From: Enoplolaimus lenunculus | Taxonomy: Eukaryota > Nematoda > Enoplea > Enoplida > Thoracostomopsidae | NCBI GenBank assembly: GCA_030248215.1 | Contig: JASANG010002815.1 | Location: 17,183-81,182 of the forward strand | DNA: 64,000 bases | Direction: 5' to 3' | Part shown: one piece after another, positions 12,140 to 49,168 of the stretch | How positions within the stretch are numbered: the stretch's first letter is position 1 | How the letters are laid out: each line of letters starts with the position of its first letter | Program-made: the position numbers and the translations under genes | The notes under the pieces: model-generated | What the model saw: only the letters and a program-made list of their open reading frames with translations | Database searches by the model: none | Told to the model about the DNA's origin: nothing

Positions 12140-12599
12140 CTGCAACACAAGTTAACGTGCAAACAGCGATTTTCTATTAATAAGTAAACCTACAATTCAA
12201 GTGCTAACTAAGTGTGTCTCATTATTTTACCAAACAAACTACCCCAAATAAATTTAGTGCTCATAGTTAATGCATGTTACTTATACAGGCAACAACCATC
12301 ATATATTGATCATCCCATCTGATTGTTTTAACCACATAGATACTGTATTATTTGGTGGCCAAAGCCTATGCCAAAATCGGTACTTCAAGGTTTAACGGCG
12401 TTTCAAATAAAATTGCCGCCCAGGAAATATGTTTTGAACAACTTTCAGTGAAGCCACGGTTTTTGCAACACTGCTTAACTGGTTTAAGATGCATAGAAAG
12501 TGCCTGTCGAACATTACTAGCAAATTGCCTGTTTTCATAATCTTAAGCCAGTACAAATAAAACCACTCTACTGAAAATACAAAATGAAACATGCTTTAC

Positions 12600-12944
12600 T
12601 GCTGCGGGTTGAAACGCACTGACAAACAGGAATTGCAGCAGTTTTACTCGATGGCACCACAAAATTACAATCCGGTGGATAATTTCGCTCATATTCGACC
12701 ACTTTTCCGAAACCTTCGCATTGCGGACCAGTAAATTTTGCAAACTTTTGATATTCTTCCACGGCTAGCTGCACTGTGTTGTCGTTGAGGGCAATCCGGC
12801 AAGAACGTAAGAAATCATCTGGCGAAAACGTAGAATAGAACTCTTCATTTGACATTAAACATACGCCAGAGTTATGTTTATAACATGCCGTCGAACATGA
12901 TTCGCCAGCATTTCCCACGATCAAATCATATGACACCAAGCCAT
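12600..12944 (-). CDS. Cys-rich module B exon (MGAT5 C-terminal-like), unit 1
   Basis: The exon encodes an 8-cysteine domain of about 115 residues that opens with YDLIVGNAGESCSTAC (C-x3-C-x6-C). Single cysteines follow in SCRIAL, PQCEGF and PDCNF, and it ends with the paired VCQC. The Cys spacing and the closing C-x-C resemble the Cys-rich C-terminal module of MGAT5-type N-acetylglucosaminyltransferases. That is family knowledge recalled by pattern, not a search result. The acceptor is CTACAG and the donor AGCA|GTAAAG. Both are phase 1, so the exon (345 bp) can be skipped or duplicated without a frame change. It lies between module A and Sushi-2. Its function is unknown; a secreted or cell-surface protein is likely. 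Confidence 0.82.
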
Positions 12945-13321
12945 CTGTAGCTAAGTAAAACATATACAATAGAAAGATAGCGCAGCTGTCCATACACCAT
13001 AAATATTAATTAATACTTCATCGTGGTTCCAGTTGCATGTCAAGCAATTTTTTGCGCAATATCCAAATATCAGATATACAGAGTGACATTATTTTAGTAT
13101 GAATAATGTACTATAGAAAGCTGAAGTATTAACTGGCAACGTTTTAAGATTATTTGATTTTTGTAATATTAAACTGCTTGCTTATAATGTGGGTGAAAAC
13201 GTAAATTACAATACAAATATATGATCGTGTGAAAACAAAGACTGCTTGGAACTGAACGTCATAATCAGTTGCTAGAAATACTCCAAATTACAACCTTTTC
13301 ATAACTTATTAAGTAATCTAC

Positions 13322-13657
13322 CTGATGTCCATTTGCAACCACACACGCGCCTCGATGTCAAACGAAAGGGAACAGCAGTGCAGTTAAGATCATTTGCGTG
13401 TAAATGATACGAGTATATCCCGTTGAAAACATCGCAGTAAGGTACTCCATACGGCGGCCGAAACTCGTGCGCGTTCATATTTGGTCGTATAAAGGGCATC
13501 GGATAAAACGCATATTCGCAAGCTTCGCGAACTGTTTTGTTCTGTTGCGCTATTGTCATACCTTCGACGTAATTGTGAAAACTGCAAAACATGTCATGAG
13601 ACGAACAGACCTGGTTGCACGATTGTTCAAGTTTAGTTCCAGCAATTATAATTGTTT
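13322..13657 (-). CDS. Cys-rich module A exon (MGAT5 C-terminal-like), unit 1
   Basis: The exon encodes an 8-cysteine module of 112 residues paralogous to module B. It has IIIAGTKLEQSCNQVC (C-x3-C-x5-C), then cysteines in REACEYAF, PYCDVF and LNCTAV, and a closing SRRVCGC. The acceptor is TGACTTTTTAG and the donor TCAG|GTAGAT, both phase 1, giving a symmetric 336-bp exon. The length is identical to its counterparts at 39977-40312 and 48014-48349, which supports the boundaries. A transposon terminus begins only 46 bp upstream of the acceptor, at 13703. The Sushi-1 exon of this unit is about 22.6 kb upstream, at 36298-36468. Confidence 0.83.
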
Positions 13658-13859
13658 CTAAAAAGTCACTGTTTATAAACCTTTTTGCAGTGTGTAGTAT
13701 TATGCGGGGTTCACGTAACCAGTTGTGCGTTTGGTACCTATTTTGTCACCAACCCATAGCAGGTGATAAATACAATCCATGCGTTAAAGCTAGCTAGCTT
13801 TTACTTACCCATATGGGTATGTTGGAGCTGTAGCTATGGGTAGCTATCCGTTCTTTTGC

Positions 13860-17006: not shown

Positions 17007-17932
17007 TCATACTTGAAAAAAAATCACAGCAAACATCGGAATCCTAACGGGTTTGTGTCTTGTATAACTACTGAAGATAACCAAAAATGTCTCTAACCGC
17101 ATTGTAGAACGTATTCTACAAAGGCATCTAAAAATATTTTTCTTCATAAAATTTATGGCCGGTATAAAAAGGCCTGAAAGTGTTTCAATTCGCGATTGCC
17201 AGATTGCATACTGCATATTTTGAACTATGAAATTGAACTGGGTTTGATCATTTTTACGCGGGAGATGCCTACCCAGAATTAAATCACTTAAACTAATGTG
17301 ATTGATTTTTGCAATTGTTTTCAACAAAGGAGACATGTCGTGATATAAGTCGTAAGCTCGTGAGCAATATATAAACACGTAGTATCTCTATTCCTGCCTT
17401 TCGGCACCAGGCACAACACTCTGGTTCCTCAGAGAAGCGGGCTAATCGATGATTTGTAAAAAAACCTTGATGTCTTAATGTAAAATGACAGTTTCTGACA
17501 GAACCTTCTACAAAACTAGCTTTCGCAAAAATCCAAGACTTCGTAATATATTCTTCTGAAACCCCTAAACTCAGGGACCAACTGTTAGTTTTTGGGTCGT
17601 AGTTCCTTTGAAAAGGTTTCTGTAACCCATAAAATACAAATTTCTTTTGGCATTATTTTTCCCAGATCAAACAATTTCCCAAAAATTAACGCAACCGCGC
17701 CATGTCTTTGAAAACCTGATTTTATTACCGCAGTTCTAATTTCCTTATATCATTGTGGAGTTTTGCAGCGTGCAAGCTGGCGAATGGTTAAGGATTGAAC
17801 ATTTTTGTAATGATGGTCGAAACTTCTTCTCCAGCTTAGGGCCTCCTTATGCGTAATTACATGTATGTAAAAAATTAAACGATTCACAAGGCAACGTATA
17901 CTTACGTTTGGAAAACCAATCCCACCTTTCAT
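17007..17932 (-). pseudogene. Frameshifted C-terminal part of LINE ORF2
   Basis: A frame change in a C-run at about 17932 separates the main ORF2 frame (ending YYFYPQ) from its continuation, which starts MKGGIGFPNVS, a motif typical of Tx1/L1 ORF2 just after the thumb. Further pieces follow. One contains KSWIFAKASFVEG and TLRHQGFFTNHRLARF ahead of a CAWC knuckle half. The last runs from about 17378 to 17007 with LSDLILGRHLP and AIWQSRIETL. Together they are the Cys-rich C-terminal domain split by at least two frameshifts. Function in an intact element: RNA binding and second-strand steps are presumed, not shown. Confidence 0.75.
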
Positions 17933-20568
17933 TGGGGGTAAAAATAATATTTCTCTTTTGATTTTGCGAGCCTGAGAAGGAAACCAACAAAGGCAGTGAC
18001 TTTTCGATAAGCCTGTGCTATAAGACTAGCAGGTGGAGTAATTAGCCTTGTCATATAGTTGAGCATGCATAAATAATACAAAGAAACAAAATGAATTCTG
18101 CCGAAAAACGAAATACCATAAGGGGGAATCATTCTAGAAATAGCCTGCAAATTTTCCTCACATTTCGTCCAGTTTGCTGAAAGATCAAAACCCTCTTTGT
18201 CAATCCAAAACCCATAAAGTTTTAAACGATTAACCACATAATTTTTATATTTAATTGGCACATTTCGTTCTGACGGACCCAGCAATAAAATTTTTGTTTT
18301 TGCAGTATTTAACCTACTACCTGAGGCGAGTTTATACTGATCAAACAACTCTATAATTGTATCCATTTCATTCCATGAAGTAACAAACAAACTTGTGTCA
18401 TCGGCGTACCTTGTTATTTTCGTATTAGTACCATGTAATGGAAAACCTCTTAGGAGATCTGTATGTCTGATAAAATTAGCCATTACTTCAGCGGTTATGA
18501 CATAGATGTACGGGGACAACGGACATCCTTGTCTAATCCCCCTGCTCAACATTATTCGTTGGGACAGAAAACCATTGACATTAACCACAGACCTTGCATA
18601 ACCAACTTTATAAATACAACTTGAAAACCCCAAAAAGTTAGGCCCAAAATTCATTTTTTCTAAAACTTTAAAAATAAAGGGCCACTCAACCATATCAAAG
18701 GCTGCTTGATGATCTGATAAAACAATCATTACTTGTTCATCATACTCATTCGAACAATCAATAACACATTTAACATGCATTATACTGTCAAAAATAGTTC
18801 GGCCAGGTATCGCACATGTCTGGTCTGGGTGAACTAACGTAGTCATGACTTTTTCAATTCTACGTGAAAGTATTTTAGCAAAAATTTTATAATCCAAATT
18901 TAGCATAGTTAACGGTCTCCAATTTTCCCTCAAGTCGCGTGCTCCAGATCCCTTATATAACAAAGAAATAACACCATCATAAGCACTAACATTCATTGTA
19001 TTATATGTTAAGAAAAGATTATACATGTCGCATAAAAATGGACTAATAAGCGAACAATACTTCCAATAAAATTCAATTGGAATTTCATCGCGGCCAGGAG
19101 TTTTATTTCCCTTGACCGAGCGTATAGCTAACTCAACTTCTGACACCGTTATGAAACTATCAAGAATTAACTTTTGGGTCTCACACAACGTGGGCAAACC
19201 TGGTGCGCTTAAAAACGAGTGCAGCAATCGGTGGTCTATTCCTTCCGATTGAAATATCGATGCGTACTGTTCTCTGATTTCAAGAAGTATTTCACCTGGG
19301 TCCTCTGAAATGTAACCATTCGATTTGCGAATAGCGTAAATATGTTTTTGTTCCCAATTTTTCCGTTGTTGTGATTTGATCGTTGCTATAGAAGAACGGT
19401 CGTTAACAAAATCATTATAATAAGTATTATGCTTACAGGAGGCTATATAGAAACTATCCATTAATTCTAATTCTAACAACAGTTGTTTTACATATTTTTT
19501 AATAATAATATCATGAGGGTTGGCACATTGTATAATCCGGGCATTCCGTATCCGGAGTTCAAGAGATCTTTTTTGAAGACGTTTAGATGTAGATTCACTT
19601 TTGCCTAACTGGCAGAAATATAATGTAATTTGTTTTTTAAAAATTTCCCATACATTAAAAGGTTCATCCGATTGCTTCAAGAAATTTTCAACAAGAGGTA
19701 TTACAAAATTGTTAACGCACTCATTCGACAGAAGGAGCGTGTTAAGCTTAAAGTAACCAGGACCTCTATTTGCTAGTAATATATCAAACTTCACACGTAC
19801 CAACTTGTGATCACACAAATTAACCGAACGGCATGAACTTCTTGCTTTTTGCACGCAATTAAGAGAGCAATATATTCTATCAATTCTCGATTGTACCAAA
19901 TGTGGTTCGGAAAAATAGGTAAACATATCCCGTTTGTAAGGAGAATTATAACGATATACATCATGTACACTTAAAAGGTCTTTTATCGATAAAAATTCAG
20001 CCAAGCCTACTTGCCTGTCTGCAGAAGCACGAGATCTGTCGAGCTCCACATTTTCAACGAAATTGAAATCACCAAGCATTACATTTATATCCATTTCATA
20101 CCACTTTTGTGAAAATAAAGTCTTTTTAACATTCGTATAAAAATCAATCCTGTTTCGTGAATTAGCCGGAGCATACAAATTTATAACAAAAATAGACGAA
20201 ATTTGTAGCTTAATATATACAGCAATGCATCGGCCGCTAATCAACTCACAGTTACGTAACGATATAACTTGAACTTTTCGGCTTATTAAAAAACTAACTC
20301 CTGATTTTGAAATGTCAATTTCGGCAAACGAGTGGTAAATCAGAAAATGGGAATTACAGATTCTGTCAAACATTTCAGCTTCATTAGGACAACGAAAATG
20401 TGTTTTCTGAAGAGCAACAACATCTAGGTCCTTGATTTTTTCCAGAACGCAAGAAATTTTGCGAAAGTTTGTCAGTCCACTACAATTGAAAGTCCCGAAA
20501 GTTAGAAATGTACAACTTGCAGCCATCAGAAAGACACTGAAAGTGTAAAGTTCGAGCAAGAGATTCAA
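17929..20568 (-). CDS. LINE ORF2: APE endonuclease plus reverse transcriptase
   Basis: Uninterrupted 879-codon frame. The endonuclease (residues about 16-260) shows TFNCSG (26-31), YAPANS, LGDFN (165-169), SRID (227-230) and CDHK (252-255). The usual metal-binding Glu of the LQET box is Lys here (LQKTH, K55), so nicking activity is probably lost. The reverse transcriptase shows KTPGRDEIP, WRPLTMLNLDYKI, a motif A aspartate in LSDHQAAFD, RQGCPLSP and the catalytic YADD (721-724), all intact. The start could be M1 or M15 (MAASCTF); the latter lies directly before the nuclease fold and matches related proteins better. The frame ends early in a C-run, and the true C-terminus continues in another frame (17007-17932). 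In a working element it would perform target-primed reverse transcription in the nucleus. Confidence 0.88.
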   Translation of the reverse strand: MNLLLELYTFSVFLMAASCTFLTFGTFNCSGLTNFRKISCVLEKIKDLDVVALQKTHFRCPNEAEMFDRICNSHFLIYHSFAEIDISKSGVSFLISRKVQVISLRNCELISGRCIAVYIKLQISSIFVINLYAPANSRNRIDFYTNVKKTLFSQKWYEMDINVMLGDFNFVENVELDRSRASADRQVGLAEFLSIKDLLSVHDVYRYNSPYKRDMFTYFSEPHLVQSRIDRIYCSLNCVQKARSSCRSVNLCDHKLVRVKFDILLANRGPGYFKLNTLLLSNECVNNFVIPLVENFLKQSDEPFNVWEIFKKQITLYFCQLGKSESTSKRLQKRSLELRIRNARIIQCANPHDIIIKKYVKQLLLELELMDSFYIASCKHNTYYNDFVNDRSSIATIKSQQRKNWEQKHIYAIRKSNGYISEDPGEILLEIREQYASIFQSEGIDHRLLHSFLSAPGLPTLCETQKLILDSFITVSEVELAIRSVKGNKTPGRDEIPIEFYWKYCSLISPFLCDMYNLFLTYNTMNVSAYDGVISLLYKGSGARDLRENWRPLTMLNLDYKIFAKILSRRIEKVMTTLVHPDQTCAIPGRTIFDSIMHVKCVIDCSNEYDEQVMIVLSDHQAAFDMVEWPFIFKVLEKMNFGPNFLGFSSCIYKVGYARSVVNVNGFLSQRIMLSRGIRQGCPLSPYIYVITAEVMANFIRHTDLLRGFPLHGTNTKITRYADDTSLFVTSWNEMDTIIELFDQYKLASGSRLNTAKTKILLLGPSERNVPIKYKNYVVNRLKLYGFWIDKEGFDLSANWTKCEENLQAISRMIPPYGISFFGRIHFVSLYYLCMLNYMTRLITPPASLIAQAYRKVTAFVGFLLRLAKSKEKYYFYPQ

Positions 20569-20588: not shown

Positions 20589-22218
20589 CTATTTTCTCTT
20601 CATAGGAATATTTGTTGGACTTAGGTCAACCGCAGATGCGGATCGTTTAACAGCACGAAAATCTTTAATACTGCTTTTAAAAATATCATCAAATTCTTTT
20701 TTGAACGTCGGATCACACGCCAGCAAATGTTTGACGTAAGACAGCAAATCGCCGTTAAGGTTTAAACAGTCTTCAGGCCATTGCGTTGGGGTTGAAGCCC
20801 TTGGGTCATCATAATTCAATCCACAACCCATTATAGATCTGCCTGTGTTCGATTCTACGAAAGCACCTGATAAAGAAAAAATTTTTTTCGTAGATCTTCA
20901 TGCTGCCTGAATTTTTCATAATTTGCTACAATGATCAATTCCCCTATCACTTGTACATAAAAACTGGGGTTTCCATTCAACGTCACTTTTTTGTGTAACC
21001 GTTTTATTTTGACCGGGTCTGTTGTTGCACGAATTTCATCCGCTACATCTGAACAATTAGCCAGTTTCGCCTTCCACACACCAACAAATTGTTCCACGCA
21101 ACTATAATGTTCACCCCAAATTTTGAGGCTAGGAGTCACCTGGTAAAAATTCGACAAAAAATTATTGGTTGGGTGTTTAGAAAAAAGAAATTTAGCTTAA
21201 TATTATTGGAAGCCGTAAAGGGAAAAATTCCTTCCTGTTTCATCGCAAGAAACTTATTCCAATTCAAAAAAATAGACAAATTCATTCGCAACTCGCGGTA
21301 GAATGTTTTCCGCTACAGAACCTTCTGGTTCAGGTGATTTATCCACCACCTCATCAACCATTACTTTTACATATTGCGATATCTGTAAATACTGCTTATC
21401 GTTTTCATAATTTAGGCGAGTTCCACGCACTAGCTCTGATTTTTTCGCGATTAATGCAGGAAAATTGTCACAATTTTCTTTCGAGTGACCATATTTAGCG
21501 CAAATGCGACAATGAACAGGCATTTCCGGACACCACACGCGGATCCGCAGTGACCCATTTCTAAAATTACGATGTTGCCAAAACAAAACAGGGGGCGGAA
21601 CGAATTCACGCAAGCATTGTATTACATAACTACGACCTGGGTATCAATCGTTGTGCTTTTCCACTTTATAAACCGTCCCGGAAAAATGGGGCTTAACCCC
21701 TGTGATTTTAAAAATTCGCACACTTGAGCATCCGGTACCGCAAAAGGTATTCCGTACAGGTGTATCGTGATACGTTTATGCAAATCTGAGTAATCCATAG
21801 TCCGTGGGTGGTGTAGCGTAACGTTTTTTCCGCATACCGTTATTGTTTCATTCGAAGCAAGTTTAGCAATATCCGGTGAATGAAAAATTAGTTGAATAGA
21901 GTTGCGCAACCGAGATGCTTTATCAAGCACAAATTTATCATTAATGTCATTTAAAATTTGCGACATGTTGAAATGTTTTAAACCTAACTGATCCAAATTG
22001 TTAAGATACAGTGTTCTCTGACGATAATAATCTAAACCTTCCTTAAGTATTTCATCATCATCGCGTGCTACAGCTGTTTACGAGTCAAAATAATCATCGT
22101 CGGGGGATGTCGGAGAGCCGTTGACGGTAGCGAGATGTTGCCGTGACGGGGTAGTTCGACCGCCACCACCTGCGTCATTGACCAAGTCGTGTGAAGTTGA
22201 AGAAGCCAATGCATACAT
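20589..22218 (-). pseudogene. LINE ORF1: N-terminal region, CCHC zinc knuckle and NADAR domain, broken
   Basis: ATG at 22218 opens a frame starting MYALASSTSHDLVND. A TAA at 22078-22080 interrupts it, and the same frame then continues to about 21622 (HLYGIPFAVPDAQVCEFLK, perhaps an RRM-like fold). After a frame change near 21625 comes the zinc knuckle CRICAKYGHSKENC (C-x2-C-x4-H-x4-C). Stops near 21256 and another shift separate this from the NADAR part, which ends in a basic tail PMKRK at 20589. The full span is about 543 codons. Tx1/L1 ORF1 proteins bind the element RNA; the NADAR addition is discussed separately. ORF2 begins 20 bp downstream, as expected for a bicistronic LINE. Confidence 0.8.
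20720..21196 (-). pseudogene. NADAR (YbiA-like) domain inside LINE ORF1
   Basis: The first part reads FLFSKHPTNNFLSNFY, then GEHYSCVEQFVGVWKAK, TDPVKIKRLHKK and NYEKFRQHEDLRKKFF. A one-base frame change in a run of seven A and six T (about 20868-20880) leads into LSGAFVESNTGRSIMGCGL, DDPRASTPTQW and LNGDLLSYVKHLL. This is the full order of NADAR landmarks: SNF, the x-E-Q/H box, KA, AKF-QH-LR-like, and GxGL-DPRA-W-LG-like. The Glu of VEQ matches the essential Glu48 of E. coli YbiA. The Trp of the usual WG is Met here. NADAR proteins are N-glycosidases acting on ADP-ribose-type linkages, including guanine-linked ADP-ribose. The role in a LINE is unknown. Confidence 0.85.
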
Positions 22219-39002: not shown

Positions 39003-39954
39003 TGGATCATTCGCGATATAATGTCTGCGTAGATGTAAAAAATGTTCCGTCTCTTCAATTTGACTGGGCCATAAACAGCACTGTAAACTTAAAATTTGGT
39101 TAGCGAAAAAACAGTGCTTCATCAGTATACATAGCCCTAGTCCTTTTGAGATACTGATGGTTACGGCTTCTAGACAAGAATGTTCAAAATTTAACAACAC
39201 AAACTAGTTTTACCATTGCTTGATGAAGCACATTGACAGATAGGTCTTCTTTGAGGCATGCCTGCGAAAGAAAAATTACAGTTCGGCATATAATTTCGTT
39301 GAAATTCGACTACTACACCAAATTGGTCACATTGCGGCCCAGTAAATTTTGAAAAAATTCTATATCCATGTACAGCCAGCTGCGCAGTATCACTCTTGAG
39401 GGCTGTCCTGCAGGAACGCAAGAAGTCGATTGGAGTAAAAGTAGAGTAGAATTCTTCTATTTGCATAGAACAAACACCAGACTTATTATTATGACATGCA
39501 GTAGAACACGCTTCACCAGCATTTCCCACAATCAAATCATATGTCACCAATTCACCTTTAAATAAGAAAAGTTTACAGGTTAAGCGGTCATTTGAGGCAA
39601 TGAAACGTATTATTTAATTTTATTTATTATATGGCTGTGTGAGCTTGTTCGACTAAATTATCACTTTGCTCGTGGTTATTTCAATTCTATTAATTGTCCC
39701 GACACTGTCCGAAGGGAGTCGGAACAAAAGGTAAAAAAATTAAGCAAAATAAATACTTGTATATATGTGTTTGTGTTGTTGTTATGTATGTTTCCGATGC
39801 TATATGAACATAGTGTAATATGTCTTTACGTCCTCGTTAGGGATTACAGGACTTTATAGTGGTGTCGTAAATGAGTGTGTTAAAACGACGTCGGGCCTTA
39901 CTCAGAGACAGACATTTTTTGCAGTAGCGCGTGCAGTATAACGTCGACGTTCCA
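39003..39954. mobile_element. Harbinger-like family 1 ends bracketing host exon B, unit 2
   Basis: The left end TGGATCATTCGCGATATAAT continues like the 7899 copy (GTCTGCGTAGATGTAAAAAA). The right end is the complement form ending GTATAACGTCGACGTTCCA. Flanks are TAA at 39000-39002 and 39955-39957. The 952-bp span contains the complete module B exon (39214-39555). Either one element carries the exon or two decayed copies flank it. The same layout recurs in copy 2 at about 47042-47991. Confidence 0.55.
39214..39555 (-). CDS. Cys-rich module B exon (MGAT5 C-terminal-like), unit 2
   Basis: A 114-residue, 8-cysteine module: GNAGEACSTAC (C-x3-C), SGVC, RSCRTAL, PQCDQF, PNCNFSF and the closing ICQC. 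It is about 60 percent identical by eye to the unit 1 module. The acceptor is TTTAAAG and the donor AATG|GTAAAA, both phase 1; 342 bp, symmetric. It differs from the unit 3 copy by one residue that I can see (NNK versus NNN). The whole exon lies between transposon-type ends at 39003 and 39954. It belongs to an extracellular modular protein of unknown function. Confidence 0.85.
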
Positions 39955-39976
39955 TAACATTCATAATACAATTTAC

Positions 39977-40312
39977 CTGATTTCCATTTGCATCCACATA
40001 CACGTCGCGATGTTAAATCAAGCGGTACCGCAGAACAGCTAAGATCGTTTGTATGTAACTGGTACGCGTACATCCGGTTATGAACGTTACAAAATGCGAT
40101 CTCGTGCGGTGGTCGAAACTCGTAAGCATTCATATCCGGTGGAAAAAAGGTCATCGGTGAAAATGCATTATCGCATGCATTACGAATTGTTTCATTCTGC
40201 TGCTCTATTGTCATACCTTCCATGTAAGTGTGAAAATTGCAAAACATACCGCGATATGAACAGACCTCGTTGCATGTTGATTGGGAAACTTTTCCAGCAA
40301 TAATCTTGGTCT
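39977..40312 (-). CDS. Cys-rich module A exon (MGAT5 C-terminal-like), unit 2
   Basis: A 112-residue, 8-cysteine module: KIIAGKVSQSTCNEVC, GMFCNF, RNACDNAF, IAFCNVH, LSCSAV and SRRVCGC. The acceptor is CCATTTTAG and the donor TCAG|GTAAAT, phase 1 on both sides; 336 bp, equal to its paralogues. Reading past the donor gives a longer open frame, but that extension enters the MITE end at 39954 and is not conserved in unit 1, so I end the exon at the donor. The Sushi-1 exon is 2.5 kb upstream. Confidence 0.85.
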
Positions 40313-40399
40313 CTAAAATGGCACAGTCGGCAAGTCAGGATTGCTGGTAAAACGTAAAACCGCTACAGGTGAATCATGGTTTGATAATTTGTTACTATT

Positions 40400-46964: not shown

Positions 46965-47252
46965 CTAAAACATGCATCGAGAAACTAAAGTGTTTTTATA
47001 AAAACAAGCACAAAATGTAACGTAGCTAACATACACCCTAATGGATCATTCACGATATAATGTCTGCGTAGATGTAAAAAATGTGCCGCCTCTTCAATTT
47101 AACTGGGCCACAAACAGCACTGTAAACTTAAAATTTGGTTAGCGAAAAAACAGTGCTTCATAAGTATACATAGCCCTAGTCCTTTTGAGATACTGATGGT
47201 TACGGCTTCTAGACAAGAATGTTCAAAATTTAACAACACAAACTAGTTTTAC

Positions 47253-47594
47253 CATTGCTTGATGAAGCACATTGACAGATAGGTCTTCTTTGAGGCATGC
47301 CTGCGAAAGAAAAATTACAGTTCGGCATATAATTTCGTTGAAATTCGACTACTACACCAAATTGGTCACATTGCGGCCCAGTAAATTTTGAAAAAATTCT
47401 ATATCCATGTACAGCCAGCTGCGCAGTATCACTCTTGAGGGCTGTCCTGCAGGAACGCAAGAAGTCGATTGGAGTAAAAGTAGAGTAGAATTCTTCTATT
47501 TGCATAGAACAAACACCAGAGTTATTATTATGACATGCAGTAGAACACGCTTCACCAGCATTTCCCACAATCAAATCATATGTCACCAATTTAC
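47253..47594 (-). CDS. Cys-rich module B exon, unit 3
   Basis: A near-identical copy of 39214-39555 with the eight cysteines and both phase-1 splice sites (TTTAAAG acceptor, AATG|GTAAAA donor). The acceptor-proximal codons differ slightly (GT AAA TTG rather than GT GAA TTG), giving Lys for Glu at the module start. Asn replaces Lys in the NNxSGVC loop. It lies between the same transposon-type ends as in unit 2. Confidence 0.85.
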
Positions 47595-48013
47595 CTTTAA
47601 ATAAGAAAAGTTTACAGGTTAAGCGGTCATTTGAGACAATGAAACGTATTATTTAATTTTATTTATTATATGGCTGTGTGAGCTTGTTCGACTAAATTAT
47701 CACTTTGCTCGTGGTTATTTCAATTCTATTAATTGTCCCGACACTGTCCGAAGGGAGTCGGAACAAAAGGTAAAGATTAAGCAAAATAAATACTTGTATA
47801 TATGTGTTTGTGTTGTTGTTATGTATGTTTCCGATGCTCTATGAACATAGTGTAATATGTCTTTACGTCCTCGTTAGGAATTACAGGACTTTATAGTGGT
47901 GTCGTAAATGAGTGTGTTAAAACGACGTCGGGCCTTACTCAGAGACAGACATTTTTTGCAGTAGCGCGTGCAGTATAACGTGGACGTTCCATAACATTCA
48001 TAATACAATTTAC

Positions 48014-48349
48014 CTGATTTCCATTTGCATCCACATACACGTCGCGATGTTAAATCAAGCGGTACCGCAGAACAGCTAAGATCGTTTGTATGTAACTGGT
48101 ACGCGTACATCCGGTTATGAACGTTACAAAATGCGATCTCCTGCGGTGGTCGAAACTCGTAAGCATTCATATCCGGTGGAAAAAAGGTCATGGGTGAAAA
48201 TGCATTATCGCATGCATTACGAATTGTTTCATTCTGCTGCTCTATTGTCATACCTTCCATGTAAGTGTGAAAATTGCAAAACATACCGCGATATGAACAG
48301 ACCTCGTTGCATGTTGATTGAGAAACTTTTCCAGCAATAATCTTGGTCT
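48014..48349 (-). CDS. Cys-rich module A exon, unit 3
   Basis: A copy of 39977-40312 with all eight cysteines and both phase-1 splice sites intact; 112 residues. Visible differences are one amino-acid change (PPQEIAF for PPHEIAF) and two silent changes. The intact frame and splice sites in both copies suggest both are still coding. Confidence 0.85.
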
Positions 48350-49168
48350 CTAAAATGGCACAGTCGGCAAGTCAGGATTGCTGGTAAAACGTAAAACCGC
48401 TACAGGTGAATCATGGTTTGATAATTTGTTACTATTACCGTATTGGGTAACATTTTGTCTGCTTAAATCACATCTCATATTCCAAAAGTCGTGGTTGTCT
48501 ACGACTATCGTCATGGCTATGTAACTTTTTGTTCATCAATATCATATGATATTCCACATATTATCTGCAATGCAAATGCTGCATGACATGTCTCCAGTTC
48601 TCTGCACACCTGAAGTCTCATAACGAAATTGTCCTGTTGAATGTCATATGATACTAAAATTTGAAATTTGATTTTGGTGTTTTCATGAGAAAAGAATCAT
48701 CGCCAGCAGCGCTGTTTATGTTAGCTTTAATATAATTATTAACAATAGCAGTTCCAGACTCTAAAAATCATTCCAACTCTCCAGATCCCCGCCAGTGTAA
48801 CACTTTGCACCGGAATTTAATCCAAGAAAATAATGATGCTGCTGCAGCTTTTTCGCTCGCATGGTTTGCTTCAATGATCCAGTCTGTTATGACTGTAAAA
48901 TTCTAAGATATGGTTTTCGAACATATATTTTCGCAAATTGACTGCTCGTAAGACATTTCGAGTTGAGATTGAACACACTTGATAAAAAAAATCAGAAATT
49001 ATTCAGTTTTGATAAGTCTGTTCAAAAATTTAGGGCAGTTTGCACAATTTGAACTGTCGAAGTCTGACTTCATTCACCAGAACATTGAAGACAAACAGCT
49101 TTTTTGTCCGGAGAACTGAAACCAAAAAGCTTCAGTTGCCAGTACACTGAAACAGCTTCAGTAACCAA

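Follow-up and report, generated by a model that had tools for sequence, protein, structure and literature searches.

A NADAR domain in ORF1 of a LINE lineage from the nematode Enoplolaimus lenunculus

A broken LINE copy with a NADAR domain in ORF1

The window, a stretch of 64,000 nucleotides of Enoplolaimus lenunculus DNA, carries on its minus strand a LINE whose ORF1 includes a NADAR domain and is followed directly by ORF2. A preliminary description had placed such an ORF1 at 20589..22218, and these coordinates proved to be right. The features of the element are given below, with residue numbers that follow the P. nicotianae structure as described in the available text of PMC11543638 and that were mapped through alignments with the solved NADARs 8bau and 2b3w.

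22218-20589, minus strand: ORF1 of the LINE, with its ATG at 22218 and a stop codon that ends at 20589; broken by stops and frameshifts
21622..22077, minus strand: N-terminal part of ORF1, a 151-aa ORF that resembles intact ORF1 N-termini by eye
21511-21470, minus strand: CCHC zinc knuckle of the form C-X2-C-X4-H-X4-C, CRICAKYGHSKENC, read from the sequence
20855..21196, minus strand: N-terminal two thirds of NADAR (PF08719, 46.4 bits, E=6.7e-12)
21094-21092, minus strand: E43 equivalent, in the N-terminal two thirds
21073-21071, minus strand: K50 equivalent, in the N-terminal two thirds
20876..20888, minus strand: A/T tract at which the NADAR frame changes; the same tract is present in all six family A copies read
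20589..20897, minus strand: NADAR C-terminal part (GCGL-DPRA-W), the C-terminal third of the domain, in a different frame
20855-20853, minus strand: E125 equivalent, in the C-terminal part
20831-20829, minus strand: W133 equivalent, Met in the window copy and Trp in the five other family A copies read
20574-17929, minus strand: ORF2, open over 881 aa and directly after ORF1, with an EEP endonuclease and a reverse transcriptase of the L1 type
17007..17928, minus strand: remains of the C-terminal part of ORF2, decayed and spread over other frames (ORFs 17007-17387, 17293-17652 and 17750-18025), like the C-terminal end of family D ORF2 by eye

The PF08719 match of the window NADAR lies above the 35.1-bit cut-off and spans positions 2-111 of the 163 in the profile, which bears out the domain assignment that had been made from sequence landmarks. 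Against NCBIfam TIGR02464 the same NADAR reaches 44.1 bits, below the cut-off of 73.7, and the piece alone gives no significant PDB match. The C-terminal third alone has no Pfam match; in copy L042, the corresponding region matches the ORF1s of families B and C (families are defined below). Because this third lies in another frame, the window NADAR spans the whole domain but is not one open frame. The earlier claim of a full-length NADAR between the knuckle and ORF2 stands as to the presence of the whole domain, which the frameshift at 20876-20888 interrupts. The E43, K50 and E125 equivalents are all present, split over the two frames.

The remainder of ORF1 is recognizable mainly by comparison, as it is homologous to the ORF1s of 471-640 aa in copies L029, L031, L034, L035 and L036. 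Its N-terminal part appears RRM-like by eye, and the Pfam scan of window pieces assigns it no family above cut-off. The window CCHC piece likewise has no knuckle match in that scan, and the knuckles of the relatives L031 and L034 give weak matches of 14.8 and 18.5 bits, below cut-off. In ORF2, RVT_1 is matched with E=9e-30 and Exo_endo_phos with E=5.8e-4 (20.1 bits, below the cut-off of 24.5), while the ORFs of the region at 17007..17928 match no Pfam family above cut-off.

The window copy is dead, a pseudogene. ORF1 is interrupted by an in-frame stop at 22080-22078, its frame changes near 21640, two or more stops lie in frame between 21256 and 21197, and NADAR itself contains the frameshift; the endonuclease motif QET is altered to QKT. 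Elsewhere in the window, two near-identical pairs of cysteine-rich ORFs lie about 8 kb apart (39191-40334 and 47230-48371), with a diverged third pair at 12568-13745; the pairs at 12568 and 39191 have no Pfam match.

LINE families, selection and active-site residues

The genome (296 Mb in 3185 contigs) gives 43 matches to the Wnt family, which is specific to animals, and these mark it as an animal genome. It was searched with pieces of the window, and the resulting counts are lower bounds. At least 69 matches were obtained for the NADAR piece (105 of 105 candidates scored), at least 54 for the CCHC-region piece (63 of 63) and at least 54 for the ORF2 piece (52 of 558). When NADAR matches were merged into 62 places, 31 were flanked on the same strand by both a CCHC match no more than 2 kb upstream and an ORF2 match no more than 3 kb downstream; in 48, at least one of the two was present. 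The sole neighbor in the wrong order belongs to a head-to-tail pair. The order CCHC-NADAR-ORF2 is not due to chance, since it recurs at dozens of loci.

A single LINE copy, such as that in the window, left room for the reading that a host NADAR gene had been inserted into one element. We searched with a query free of NADAR, the 300 N-terminal residues of one family E ORF1, and scored all 51 candidates. In all 42 matches a NADAR follows on the same strand at a distance of 100-1860 bases. By family, 27 were assigned to D, six to E, four to B and one to A, three lie in a tandem array on contig C53, and one, on C678, was left unassigned. Most matches beyond family E are weak, with E values of about 1e-7 to 1e-4, and the 42 are not independent, because 27 of them are copies of one family. 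Nonetheless, an isolated insertion of a host gene is ruled out by these matches and by the retention of NADAR in the ORF1 frame of families B, C, D and E, and we regard that reading as extremely improbable. Other family members keep the domain, the lack of which the preliminary description had named as a sign of an isolated insertion: the NADAR in ORF1 belongs to the LINE lineage and is not an accident.

Copies with ORF2 and no NADAR were also inspected. Sixteen ORF2 places lacked NADAR in the first merge, and three of these have it in another search. Five of the remaining 13 were read upstream, where four have no ORF1 and begin at or inside ORF2, and one has only the tail of ORF1. These five long ORF2 copies are ordinary 5' truncations, and no NADAR-less LINE relative was found among the five of 13 places read.

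On contig C53 (G000:C53:292347-300338, minus strand), five NADAR matches lie approximately 1.9-2.0 kb apart, three of them with an ORF1-like match upstream; no ORF2 match is among those listed there. This region is a tandem array of an ORF1-NADAR unit.

Five families were labelled by similarity:

Family A: the family of the window copy
Family B: L031, L032 and L043
Family C: L033 and L044
Family D: L029, L030 and others
Family E: L034, L035 and L036

The ORF1s of families C, D and E share 23-37% identity with that of family B. From stop to stop, ORF1s with an uncut 5' end measure 471-640 aa; the longest ORF2 has 1181 aa. RVT_1 is above cut-off in all five ORF2s scanned and Exo_endo_phos in three of the five, with the window copy (20.1 bits) and L036 (24.1 bits) falling below 24.5. 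A profile of six ORF2s finds human L1 ORF2p as its best match among solved structures (454 bits) and R2 at 92 bits. Because the profile is far closer to the L1 protein than to R2, the element is classified by sequence as an L1-group LINE, probably of the Tx1 clade, a putative placement taken from the literature. Site-specific insertion is typical of some Tx1 elements.

Family D is the largest seen, with 31 NADAR places assigned among the at least 69 genome matches, and 18 of these 31 lie in open frames of at least 538 aa with no stop in the match. Its copies L029 and L030 share 99.5% identity along 5219 bases. Two family D copies differ in their flanks, compared on the 5' side only. The sequence shared by L029 and L030 starts only some 11-14 bases before the ATG of ORF1; either the 5' UTR of this family is very short, or both copies were cut at the same place.

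The domain scores vary among families. PF08719 gives 72.6 bits for B, 52.2 for C, 93.3 for E1 and 103.3 for E3, all above the cut-off of 35.1, as is the window copy. Family D reaches only 27.4 bits, below cut-off; it was counted as a NADAR because most of its copies match that of the window with E=4.9e-16. With TIGR02464, which NCBIfam names riboflavin biosynthesis intermediates N-glycosidase, E1 (84.1) and E3 (104.2) exceed the cut-off of 73.7, and D (24.9), like the window copy, falls below. Family E NADARs match the solved NADARs 8bau and 2b3w by phmmer (1.1e-6 and 3.9e-8), whereas family B matches a solved NADAR with E=0.022 only.

Selection was assessed within B, C and D and within E. In comparisons among B, C and D, and likewise among the three members of E, synonymous changes have reached or almost reached saturation, and the nonsynonymous distance is 0.47-0.76. 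The E1 and E2 NADARs differ at 87 of 113 synonymous sites and at 140 of 397 nonsynonymous ones (p=1.7e-15 if sites are treated as independent). Within family B, L031 and L032 give a dN/dS of 0.12 (p=0.017) and L031 and L043 one of 0.37 (p=0.26), each from few changes, and the family C pair has no change. These substitution patterns indicate that NADAR evolves under purifying selection across families B, C and D and across the E members, in relatives with open frames of the kind for which such an analysis had been proposed.

Conversely, the NADAR of family A, the window's own family, looks to be under relaxed selection. Six copies of this family, a set without those on C1 and C130, were compared at the A/T tract, and the NADAR continues out of frame in all of them, by -1 in four and by +1 in two. 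Over codon positions 1, 2 and 3, variable sites after the break are distributed 9:2:4, and in the N-terminal part the window copy differs from the copy on C106 by no synonymous and five nonsynonymous changes. An A-AAA-AA[A/C] heptamer before the tract is kept in five of the six copies, and programmed -1 frameshifting was considered. Loss of NADAR while the family still moved is the simpler explanation, favored by the two copies in the +1 frame and by the missing excess of third-position changes.

The active site was examined in an alignment of 163 columns comprising six open-frame LINE NADARs (B, C, D and three E). Eighteen columns are invariant, and they include all three of the E43, K50 and E125 equivalents, for which the probability by chance is 0.0012; the W133 equivalent is invariant too. 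According to the available text of PMC11543638, E43 and E125 are equivalents of catalytic residues, and K50 likely corresponds to K95. The ligand contacts D130 and W89 have equivalents in all three family E rows. In B, D and C, D130 is replaced by K, P and R, respectively, and W89 by Y, and because of these replacements the pocket or substrate handling may be shifted in B, C and D.

NADARs in other mobile elements

A NADAR search of the whole genome yields at least 151 matches (150 of 335 candidates scored), and none of the best 20 places is a LINE. Eleven of these 20 are multicopy elements, as judged by ORF resemblance, in which a long ORF is followed by a NADAR ORF, and the other nine are multi-ORF elements. 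NADAR-carrying elements other than LINEs include the following:

L009, L010, L011, L012, L013, L019, L021 and L025-L028: SF1-helicase multicopy element, with an ORF of more than 1000 aa in most copies, then a separate NADAR ORF some 200 aa long
L014-L018, L020, L022-L024 and L048: Polinton-like elements, multi-ORF, carrying a NADAR ORF
L047:1-1905: Gypsy-like integrase, then a NADAR ORF
L046:166-2440: integrase piece below cut-off and PWWP domain, then a NADAR ORF
L045:1091-2632: NADAR ORF after an integrase part, in an element left unassigned

Of these, L045-L048 were read in addition to the best 20 places. The SF1-type helicase (AAA_11/AAA_12) was identified by Pfam in L009 and L021, the two copies scanned. 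Copies of this element that were compared are 92-99% alike over 4-5 kb, and L009 shares with L012 and L013 a common limit near L009:7020. When ORFs of the nine multi-ORF elements were scanned with Pfam, one case (L016) showed an integrase and a chromodomain, one (L018) an A32-like ATPase exactly at cut-off, and three no family, NADAR ORFs aside. We infer that these elements are Polinton-like, although the integrase and chromodomain of the L016 type alone would also fit a Gypsy-type element. In L048 the integrase adjoins a NADAR in which the E43, E125 and W133 equivalents are lost. The NADAR ORFs of L045 and L046 run into a region that looks SGNH-hydrolase-like by eye and has no Pfam match.

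A tree of 25 NADARs, including five of the 11 SF1-helicase loci and four of the 10 Polinton-like loci, was built with seven phage YbiA-like proteins as the outgroup. One of two near-identical Polinton-like rows was dropped, and family A is absent from the tree because its piece, N-terminal only, was dropped as well. The NADARs group by carrier, with support of 96/97 for the SF1-helicase element, 89/92 for the LTR-like elements with L045, 100/99 for LINE families B-D, 99/98 for LINE family E, 51/75 for the Polinton-like elements and 73/97 for the phage proteins. Deep branches are weak, as is the unity of all LINE NADARs (70/82), and eight of the 22 inner branches carry a star. With single queries, whose reach is limited to close relatives, no NADAR relatives were detected in bacterial and viral contigs. 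The grouping by carrier would fit separate, long-standing acquisitions by these classes of element, without proving their number.

The fusion of a LINE with NADAR is not the first of its kind, since NADARs in the ORF1s of oyster Tx1 LINEs are already mentioned in the available text of PMC12477816, and the reservation in the preliminary description that such fusions might have been described was well placed. The Crassostrea gigas Tx1 LINEs, whose ORF1s appear to hold NADAR-like domains, resemble the present element as LINEs with a YbiA-type NADAR in ORF1. The likeness is to their published description, and the available text gives no anatomy, selection or active-site analysis. The same text describes Ectocarpus Gypsy elements with a NADAR at the Pol N-terminus, which are likewise retrotransposons with an acquired NADAR; they are LTR elements, however, and the position of the domain differs, as the Gypsy-like L046 and L047 have it after the integrase. 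Beyond PMC12477816, we found no paper on NADAR in transposons by title or opening of the abstract among those listed from the open-licence literature, and in the same literature no report of NADAR in Polinton-like, Gypsy-like and SF1-helicase repeats of one genome that group by carrier. The part that may be new is the recruitment of NADAR across several classes of element.

Among other known NADARs, 8bau, which from its residue spacing appears to be the P. nicotianae protein, and E. coli YbiA (2b3w) are homologous domains whose catalytic E/K/E residues are kept in the LINE NADARs. They are free-standing proteins, however, and LINE families B-D are without the D130 and W89 equivalents. Mobile and viral genomes with NADAR, for which counter-defense has been proposed, are alike in their carriage of the domain, but a LINE is not a virus, and the words retrotransposon, transposon and retroelement are absent from the published account. 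In the DarT1-NADAR toxin-antitoxin system, as far as the available text of PMC11543638 describes it, NADAR removes ADP-ribose from guanine. That system differs in that no DarT was found in this genome (0 matches and 0 candidates) and in that the NADAR here is part of a retrotransposon ORF1.

Possible roles of the ORF1 NADAR

ORF1 proteins bind the RNA of their element, as is established for L1. We predict, with a probability of about one half, that the ORF1 NADAR is a cis-carried guanine de-ADP-ribosylase that guards the RNA or cDNA of the element. ORF1p would use its N-terminal region and knuckle to coat the RNA of the element, and this would bring NADAR next to the RNA or the nascent cDNA. 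There the domain would hydrolyze ADP-ribose adducts in N-glycosidic linkage, probably to guanine above all, that might otherwise block reverse transcription, translation or integration. NADAR might thereby act as an eraser, carried in cis, against the ADP-ribosylation of nucleic acids by the host or by a rival.

The biochemistry described for NADARs is compatible with such a role. They remove ADP-ribose from guanine in DNA (PMC11543638, in its available text), and the available text of PMC11833690 presents them as the only hydrolase family tested that reverses guanosine ADP-ribosylation of RNA and as inactive on phosphate-end modification. No or negligible activity on uracil adducts is described in the accessible part of PMC13036486. 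The preliminary description had suggested recruitment of an eraser against a host defense, a proposal to which the presence of NADAR in every ORF1 relative from the NADAR-free search and the retention of the named residues in B-E lend weight, and for which no DarT homologue was found as a source of the modification. Searches for PARP exons gave eight matches in the genome.

It is also possible, if rather unlikely, that the NADAR fold serves ORF1p as a module for structure or for binding, for example of ADP-ribosylated ligands or RNA, in which catalysis is dispensable. Loss of the D130 and W89 equivalents in B-D, the weak Pfam score of family D and the out-of-frame NADAR of the family A copies speak for such a module. 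The invariance of E43, K50, E125 and W133 in six LINE NADARs, from families of which C, D and E have ORF1s only 23-37% identical to that of B, argues otherwise. Alternatively, NADAR could be an N-glycosidase acting on small molecules, such as soluble ADP-ribose derivatives or riboflavin intermediates, that dampens NAD-derived immune signals or repairs metabolites. The NCBIfam name and the scores of E1 and E3 above the TIGR02464 cut-off (with D and the window below) are in keeping with this, as are the soluble targets proposed for phage NADARs in the available text of PMC9503650. Fusion to a zinc-knuckle ORF1 would instead favor a nucleic-acid substrate, and a metabolite enzyme acting in trans would give the encoding copy little advantage, so we consider a small-molecule role unlikely.

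The role of NADAR can be tested, as this genome also has relatives in which both ORF1 and ORF2 are open. Its occurrence in several classes of element leads to the hypothesis of a common guanine-ADP-ribosylating threat, which predicts a host or symbiont transferase. As a tentative extension that we hold to be somewhat improbable, guanine ADP-ribosylation might be the mark that the host lineage sets on foreign nucleic acid or on that of mobile elements. This would be why, in one animal genome, four unlike kinds of element have NADAR lineages of their own, namely the L1-group LINE lineage, the Gypsy-like LTR elements, the Polinton-like elements and the multicopy SF1-helicase element, and the LINE would be one sign of an animal defense, so far undescribed, that writes ADP-ribose on nucleic acid. 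If the proposed mechanism is true, retrotransposons would carry their own de-ADP-ribosylases, and nucleic-acid ADP-ribosylation would be indicated as a defense against mobile elements in animals.
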